From positions 1-36,393 of the forward strand of contig JAJRTK010000389.1 of assembly GCA_024278345.1 (NCBI GenBank): 36,393 nt of DNA, given 5' to 3'. The position numbers and the translations under genes were made by a program. The notes beneath the pieces are model-generated. The model worked only from the letters and a program-made list of their open reading frames with translations, was not told where the DNA came from and did not search any database. Each line of letters opens with the position of its first letter. The first letter of the stretch is position 1. Positions 11,693 through 36,302 of this stretch are shown piece by piece. This stretch comes from a bacterium. GTDB lineage: Bacteria > CSSED10-310 > JAJRTK01.

Positions 11693-11781
11693 CTCCCCAG
11701 AAACCCGGGCTCTGTGCCCCAAAAGGTCCGCGAGTATCCGGCGGGACAGAGAACCACGTGGGTGGGGAACTCGTTGCCTTT

Positions 11782-12427
11782 GGGTATGCACCTAAGCCGG
11801 GACACACGACAAAACCAGAAAAAGCCGCGCAGCGTACAAAAATGTGGGCTGGGATCCCGTTGCCCTTCGTTGCAACGGGAAGATGAGCTAGCTCCCTGGT
11901 GGGTGCGGAGCAAAGCCCTGCCAGGGGACTGGGGACGGAGTCCCCAGACGACCGCCGGGGAACGCGAGGCGTGACCCTTCGAGTCACGGGGTATCCACGT
12001 AAGGCGGGACACTGAAGAAACGTAAGAAAAAGGCGTGCAGCGCACAAAATGTACGTCCAGGGAGCAAGCTCCCTGGTGGGTGCAGGGCGAAGCCTTGCCA
12101 GGGGACCGGGGACGGCGTCCCCGGACGACCGCCGAGCAACGCGAGGCGCCGGCAGAACGTAAAAGAGTATCGAATTGTCCCGCCTTAACGAGCATGATCC
12201 CGGCGACCACACCCCGGAAGATGAAAGTGGAAGGCGCGGAGCGCCATGACCACGCCGTCGAAGATGGATTCAACCATGTACTTTCATGGTACGTGGATAC
12301 CCGAGTCACGCAAACGTGACCCGCCGAGCAGCGCGAGGCGCTGCCCGGACGATTGGCATTACCACAATCCATGAAGTGTCCCGCTTTACGTGGATACCCC
12401 CCATTGTCCCGCCTTGAGTGGATACCC
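11782..12427 (+). mobile_element. Nested MITE-like element (level 2)
   Basis: TIRs GGGTATGCACCTAAGCCGGGACA 11782-11804 and TGTCCCGCCTTGAGTGGATACCC 12405-12427 (19/23); perfect 8-bp TSD TTGCCTTT at 11774-11781 and 12428-12435. Confidence 0.88.
11989..12302 (+). mobile_element. Nested MITE-like element (level 3) carrying about 89 bp of unrelated sequence near its right end
   Basis: GGGTATCCACGTA 11989-12001 and TACGTGGATACCC 12290-12302 perfect 13-bp inverted termini; perfect 8-bp TSD GAGTCACG at 11981-11988 and 12303-12310. Confidence 0.88.
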
Positions 12428-12613
12428 TTGCCTTTCATTGCAACGGGTCCCGCGAGCTCCCTGGTGGGTGCAGGGCAAAGCCCTAGGCGTGCGGGCCGGA
12501 AGGCCCGCACGCCAACCCCCGGTTTCCGGAGTCTCCGGACAACCGCTGAGCAAATCGAGGCGCCAGAGAGCCTCGAGTTGTCCCACCTTACGTGGATATC
12601 CGGGTCCGCCACA

Positions 12614-32116: not shown

Positions 32117-32382
32117 GGCCTCGGTCATGGTACCGGCCACCCGAAAAAAGCACGCAGCGCCCAAAGAGGGGTCCAGGGAGCTGGCTCCCTGGCGTAGGTC
32201 TGATGCCGAGCGTAAGCGAGCCGCGGCCCAAGGGGCCGCGGCGCAAGCTCCCAGCGGAGGTCCGGAGGCCGCCTCCGCCGGGTTCCAGGGCTGGAAGCCC
32301 TGGCGCGGCGTTGAAATTCTGTACCGTGGCCGGGTCCGAGCGACAGCGAGAGCTGCCGAAGGCACCACCGATGACCGAGGCC
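32117..32382 (+). mobile_element. MITE-like multi-hairpin element with 8-bp TSD (GGCCTCGGTCAT class)
   Basis: GGCCTCGGTCAT 32117-32128 / ATGACCGAGGCC 32371-32382; perfect TSD TAGATTAT 32109-32116 and 32383-32390. Confidence 0.9.
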
Positions 32383-35966: not shown

Positions 35967-36302
35967 GGGTCTCAACGTAAGCCGGGACACCCGCCAAAAC
36001 AAAGACGCAACGCGTCGTACATGAATGTGGGCTGGGATCCCGTTGCCTTTCGTTGCAACGGGAAGATGAGCGAGCTCCCTGGTGGGTGCAGGGCGAAGCC
36101 CTGCCGGGGACCGGGGCCGGAGCCCCCGGATGACCGCCGAGTAACGCGAGGCGTGACCCGCCGAGTAACGCGAGGCGTGACCCGCCGAGTAACGCGAGGC
36201 GTGACCCGCCGAGTAACGCAAACGTGACCCGCCGAGCGATAGCGAGGCGTTGGCGTTTGCAATGCCACAATCCTCGAATTGTCCCGCGTTGCGTGGATGC
36301 CC
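35967..36302 (+). mobile_element. MITE-like multi-hairpin element (GGGTATCC class) with 8-bp TSD
   Basis: GGGTCTCAACGTAAGCCGGGACA 35967-35989 / TGTCCCGCGTTGCGTGGATGCCC 36280-36302 (17/23); TSD GCGGAACG 35959-35966 and 36303-36310; tandem 24-bp hairpin units 36135-36250. Confidence 0.92.

Follow-up and report, generated by a model that had tools for sequence, protein, structure and literature searches.

The nested locus

The window, by which we mean the whole stretch of DNA analysed (36,393 bp), is the complete contig C321 of a 6.06-Mb draft genome in 550 contigs. Between positions 11724 and 12609 it carries three MITEs, each placed inside the one before, and a fourth insertion of another kind lies within the innermost of them. 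A solo MITE of the same family is found near the end of the window. The features are listed below, with the strand where one applies.

11732..12601, no strand: level-1 MITE, outermost and oldest; own sequence 216 bp (11732-11781 and 12436-12601); flanks AGGTCCGC/GGGTCCGC
11724..11731, no strand: level-1 target duplication, left copy AGGTCCGC; right copy GGGTCCGC at 12602-12609; 7/8 match
11732..11748, + strand: level-1 left TIR, degenerate; GAGTATCC then GGCGGGACA, six middle bases absent
12579..12601, - strand: level-1 right TIR
11782..12427, no strand: level-2 MITE; perfect 8/8 duplication TTGCCTTT at 11774-11781 and 12428-12435
12377..12399, - strand: extra right-end TIR copy of level 2, adjoining the true level-2 right end at 12405-12427
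11989..12302, no strand: level-3 MITE; perfect 8/8 duplication GAGTCACG at 11981-11988 and 12303-12310
12188..12289, + strand: level-4 insert, 102 bp in the level-3 right TIR; TGTCCCGCCTTA, then the insert, then TACGTGGATACCC
35967..36302, no strand: solo MITE of the same family as levels 1-3, 336 bp; perfect duplication GCGGAACG on its flanks

The level-2 MITE sits within the body of level 1 and the level-3 MITE within the body of level 2; level 3 measures 210 bp once the level-4 insert is subtracted. All three are bounded by one family of 23-bp TIR, and the first 238 bp of level 2 are 84% identical to the solo copy at 35967-36302. The boundaries and duplications of the outer element and of the two within it agree with those of the original prediction, which had also held that removing each insertion would rebuild sequence found intact elsewhere. 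This is borne out by many paralogues. The rebuilt level-2 empty site, made of the flanks and one copy of the duplication, corresponds to a paralogous sequence in L052 over 56/56 bases (98%), and the rebuilt level-3 site to sequences in L211 and L151 over 56/56 bases (96%). Dozens more paralogous copies have uninterrupted level-2 or level-3 junctions, and level 1 is surrounded by unique sequence.

The nesting itself gives the order of the insertion events, and the relative ages that had been proposed stand. Among the three duplications, only the outermost is imperfect. The count of three levels was too low: the three MITEs are real, and to them must be added the fourth insertion, inside the level-3 TIR. 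The first reading of the sequence had missed both this 102-bp insert, which splits the level-3 right TIR at a TA, and the tandem right-end TIRs of level 2.

These tandem TIRs (12377-12427) are 28 bp apart and close the level-2 element; back-to-back TIRs similar to the level-2 end are also present at L060 318-369 and L052 776-818. The bodies of the MITEs contain arrays of a unit of about 24 bp, GAGTAACGCGAGGCGTGACCCGCC, in variable copy number (36151-36236 in the window; L096, L108 and L116). Arrays of this unit are the landing site of level 3.

The TIR family in the genome

Genome-wide, the 23-bp TIR occurs 231 + 230 times with no more than 3 mismatches, against 0 occurrences of a reversed-sequence control. 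In about 1.34 Mb of the genome an 8-bp flanking duplication (at most 1 mismatch) is present at 20 of the 66 TIR pairs separated by less than 1 kb, proportions of this kind being those of a biased genome sample because the contigs were picked for holding these repeats. Shuffling of the right flanks gives an expectation of 0.5 duplicated pairs, with a maximum of 4 in 1000 shuffles, so that the duplications at paired TIRs are far above chance. If the ends are permitted a one-base offset, the duplication is seen at 30 of the 71 TIR pairs that lie within 5 kb. The usual length of the MITEs is 168-303 bp, and among the contigs examined no duplicated pair other than level 2 was found with its TIRs 500-6000 bp apart. 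A search of 40 other genomes, of which seven are from the same phylum and are its nearest relatives at phylum level only, did not find the TIR. Viral contigs and phages contained neither the TIR nor a relative of DUF6399, the protein family described below.

A second MITE family is also represented in the window.

32117..32140, + strand: second-family TIR GGCCTCGGTCATGGTACCGGCCAC; a DUF6399 insertion sequence of Thiodictyon has a related TIR
117-140, - strand: another copy of the second-family TIR

Perfect 8-bp duplications flank 4/9 pairs of this family. It is present in high copy number (also L060, L067, L136 and L150), and the hairpin modules of its bodies resemble those of the first family. 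At L071 (contig C5; 335-535) a second-family MITE splits an ISL3-family transposase gene and is flanked on both sides by the repeat TTCAAGCG, the right copy following one extra G.

In many contigs (C1, C47, C80, C82, C96, C100 and others) the end falls within a MITE, 80-170 bp into it, which indicates that the repeats fragment the assembly. Such breaks could conceal intact copies of a transposase.

A candidate transposase family

What, then, moved these MITEs? The window itself holds no transposase, as had been stated from its sequence: none was found among the 16 major ORFs scanned with Pfam, and there was no tblastn match to DUF6399 (PF19936). The exact TIR pattern has 12 matches in GTDB contigs, all of them in Leptolyngbyaceae/Nodosilinea cyanobacteria. 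Four are MITEs of 136-150 bp with perfect 8-bp duplications (TCGCTACT, CAGATTAA, GTGATCGG and GGAGTTTG). A further two represent an element of 1331 bp in which the transposase gene is broken, present in two cyanobacteria at apparently the same site. The product of this gene matches DUF6399 proteins encoded on Acaryochloris and Crinalium plasmids.

The plasmid-borne DUF6399 elements have defined ends. That of Crinalium is 2505 bp long, with a TIR match of 24/24 and the perfect 8-bp duplication CGTTTTCT; that of Acaryochloris is 1751 bp, with TIRs and the perfect duplication TAAATTGG; and that of Thiodictyon is 1916 bp, with TIRs and the perfect duplication GTCCAACC. At 1.75-2.5 kb, they have either the TIR type of levels 1-3 (GGCTACCAATCTAAGGCGGGACA; GGGTATCAATTTAAGCCGGGAAA) or that of the second family, and so both types found in the genome of the window are carried by DUF6399 elements. 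They encode a protein, annotated as DUF6399 or hypothetical, whereas the elements of the window are gene-less. A perfect 8-bp duplication is present in 3/5 full-length elements (L239, L240 and L242). Two further Acaryochloris copies (L237 and L238) are without it, for which later recombination, the sole explanation we offer, may be responsible. The broken L229, a third other full-length TIR-bounded copy, likewise has no 8-bp duplication.

Remnants of the gene are present in the window's own genome. Between TIRs on C507 there is a DUF6399 match of 51% over 33 aa (E 1.5e-5), and between TIRs on C390 one of 31% over 85 aa (E 4e-6); both represent internal or C-terminal parts of the gene only. These TIR-enclosed fragments suggest that the genome formerly held an autonomous element. 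About a quarter of the genome (~1.47 of 6.06 Mb) was read base by base, and in this portion there was neither an intact DUF6399 gene nor a repeated transposase ORF.

Alignment of three full-length DUF6399 proteins reveals a conserved D in (G/A/E)DET, a D in SDxA and an E in EGRNG, an order that is DDE-like. A DDE-type transposase gene between the same TIRs, with 8-bp duplications, was what the original prediction had said should be sought; DUF6399 in other bacteria has this arrangement, and the two remnants in the genome in question lie between such TIRs. No solved structure was similar to DUF6399 by sequence. Pfam lists DUF6399 as a family of unknown function, and the open-access literature that was searched makes no mention of it. 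Because the TIR is common to DUF6399 elements and the genome retains DUF6399 remnants, levels 1-3 are most likely MITEs of this uncharacterised transposase family, with DUF6399 the most likely catalyst of their movement.

The level-4 insert

The 102-bp insert carries no gene. It is bordered by TA on each side, and it has neither an 8-bp duplication nor TIRs of its own; its sequence starts ACGAGC and ends TTTCATGG. When the level-3 unit was used in BLAST its last 128 bp recurred alone, because the insert splits the right TIR. Of the 40 copies in the genome, 34 near-full-length ones were analysed, and both flanks could be read in 32. The same TA inside a MITE TIR is the site of 17/32. A further 6/32 share one half-site, tandem dimers joined by TA included, and 9/32 are at other sites, several with CGCCCTA-like left flanks. 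TIR-like TA makes up 0.14% of the TA dinucleotides in the same contigs, against 17/32 of the insert sites. All 17 TIR-located copies have the same orientation relative to the TIR; the insert in L165, and probably that in L158, is in the opposite orientation. The occurrence of the insert is thus TIR-specific and orientation-biased.

The same TIR position is also occupied by inserts of other lengths (63, 163 and about 200 bp), which have related ends. In L145 (6006-6530) both TIRs of a single MITE are interrupted at the same TA, one by the 102-bp insert and the other by a different insert of 163 bp.

A possible link to the IS110 family is provided by the 63-bp insert, whose right end, AACAGGCGGAATCTTCCATGG then TA, shares 20/23 bases with sequence about 105 bp past the stop of an IS110-family gene on C136 (NF033542 match, E 2e-21). 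This C-terminal fragment is the only IS110 gene found. The profile search of the genome likewise gave one PF02371 C-terminal fragment of IS110 and no PF01548, and no intact IS110 gene was seen in the ~1.47 of 6.06 Mb that was read. A PF02371 match in C17 was rejected as IS110 because its ORF carries competence-type helix-hairpin-helix sequence. At L210 (2517-2785) a MITE lies directly against the C-terminal portion of the one IS110 gene fragment in the genome, an arrangement indicating that MITE and IS110 each landed in or beside the other.

Matches of the guide type were also looked for. The longest between the 102-bp insert and the TIR is 6 nt, a length reached by 48% of shuffles. One long relative of the insert (L151) has a match of 10 nt, and the IS110 3' region one of 8 nt (3.7% of shuffles). 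Rfam gave no match in the search for a guide RNA.

Comparison with known systems

Prokaryotic MITEs such as the cyanobacterial Nezha (PMC10969869) are, like those of the window, short, gene-less and TIR-bounded, make target duplications and outnumber their autonomous partner. The MITEs of the window differ from prokaryotic MITEs in general in their deep nesting and in having hairpin bodies common to two TIR families. Their probable transposase family is apparently undescribed in the literature searched.

For level 4 the closest likeness is to IS4321 and IS5075, of the IS1111 group of the IS110 family, which target the TIRs of transposons (Partridge and Hall 2003, as cited in PMC11187229). In both cases insertion into the TIR is oriented and site-specific, with no usual target duplication. 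However, IS4321/IS5075 are complete insertion sequences that encode a DEDD transposase and enter Tn21-family TIRs, whereas inserts of the level-4 type are 63 to ~200 bp long, gene-less, and have a MITE TIR as their target. The targets of IS110-family members are repetitive, with insertion taking place at a core dinucleotide, and for IS621 a 22-bp donor is sufficient if the RNA comes in trans (PMC11208160). Level 4 shares with IS621 and other bridge-RNA IS110 elements its dinucleotide-centred insertion and its repetitive targets. The core, CT in IS621, would here be TA, and no guide match beyond chance was found in the 102-bp insert. The level-4 insert would fit a non-autonomous IS110 element that targets TIRs as IS4321/IS5075 do. 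We class it as working like an IS110/IS1111 element, not as a member of the family. Its mobilisation was most likely by an IS110-family recombinase, and an RNA may have guided it.

Alternative explanations

The MITEs might have been moved by a family already known to duplicate about 8 bp. The ISL3, IS1595 and ISAs1 families make duplications of this length, and genes or fragments of all three are present in the genome. Their ends are not those of the MITEs: the ISL3 copy apparently ends GATGGCGAAGAGCC, two IS1595 copies diverge at GGCTCTATATGCG and the ISAs1 fragment apparently ends near TGCGATTGCCATG. No IS256/Transposase_mut gene was found in the genome search, and matching TIRs are present on the DUF6399 elements instead. 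We consider this origin very improbable. ISL3, IS1595, IS256, rve and DDE_Tnp_1 were all searched for in the window's own genome, and none was bounded by the MITE TIR. That the nest arose by chance or as an artefact of a draft, metagenome-type assembly has a negligible probability in our judgement. The assembly is in 550 contigs, many of which end at these repeats, but the nest is interior to a 36-kb contig with unique flanks, and misassembly would not yield two perfect duplications and one of 7/8 together with paralogous empty sites for levels 2 and 3.

As for the 102-bp insert, could it be an immobile sequence, inherited by the descendants of a single interrupted MITE? Many copies do lie at the same TIR position. 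Against descent from one amplified MITE, the MITE ends that hold the insert are of the left type in some copies and of the right type in others, and belong to different bodies, L145 holds two different inserts, one per TIR, inserts from 63 to ~200 bp occupy the common position, and unit-TA-unit tandem dimers and non-TIR sites exist; descent alone is hardly credible. An IS200/IS605-type palindrome-associated element, or some other element outside IS110 that inserts beside a CCTTA motif, is unlikely too, while keeping an appreciable chance. The asymmetric ends, the conserved left-flank motif and the lack of an 8-bp duplication and of TIRs are also compatible with a Y1-type element, and the 102-bp insert has no guide-like match to the TIR. 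What speaks for the IS110 link is that the right end (CTTTCATGG then TA) occurs 3' of the C136 IS110 gene, that the TIR preference spans both half-sites, and that TIR-targeting relatives within IS110 are known (PMC11187229).

Proposed history

The nesting, the duplications and the paralogous empty sites are read directly from the sequence, as is the presence in other bacteria of DUF6399 genes between such TIRs with 8-bp duplications and of gene remnants in this genome. Taking these together with the IS110-type insert, we think it probable that the locus records four steps, in which MITEs moved by DUF6399 were followed by an IS110-type insertion in the level-3 TIR. A DUF6399 transposase would have moved levels 1-3 in trans through their 23-bp TIRs, leaving 8-bp target duplications, and the MITE bodies would have served as targets, each later MITE landing in the body of an earlier one. 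Either a cut-and-paste or a copying mode of movement would suit this sequence evidence. In the last event an IS110-type recombinase would have placed the 102-bp mini-element at the TA in the right TIR of level 3, the youngest MITE. The level-4 element would recognise the TIR sequence itself, and a guide RNA, if it has one, would be expected to match TGTCCCGCCTTACGTGG. The interruption of the TIR probably bars the level-3 MITE from further movement. More tentative is the general proposal that gene-less mini-IS110 elements of 63 to ~200 bp, probably steered by a guide RNA in trans, enter and silence the TIRs of DUF6399-moved MITEs, to which we give somewhat less than an even chance.

Significance

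The locus is a layered and relatively dated record of insertions. Through its defined ends and 8-bp duplication, DUF6399, a family of unknown function, gains a probable role as a transposase, and it connects gene-less repeats of three distantly related bacterial groups. Level 4 would represent a mobile element that, in a gene-less miniature form, has become a specialist for the functional ends of another. If this is true, the mini-IS110 inserts are parasites of parasites, which disable the MITEs that they enter.
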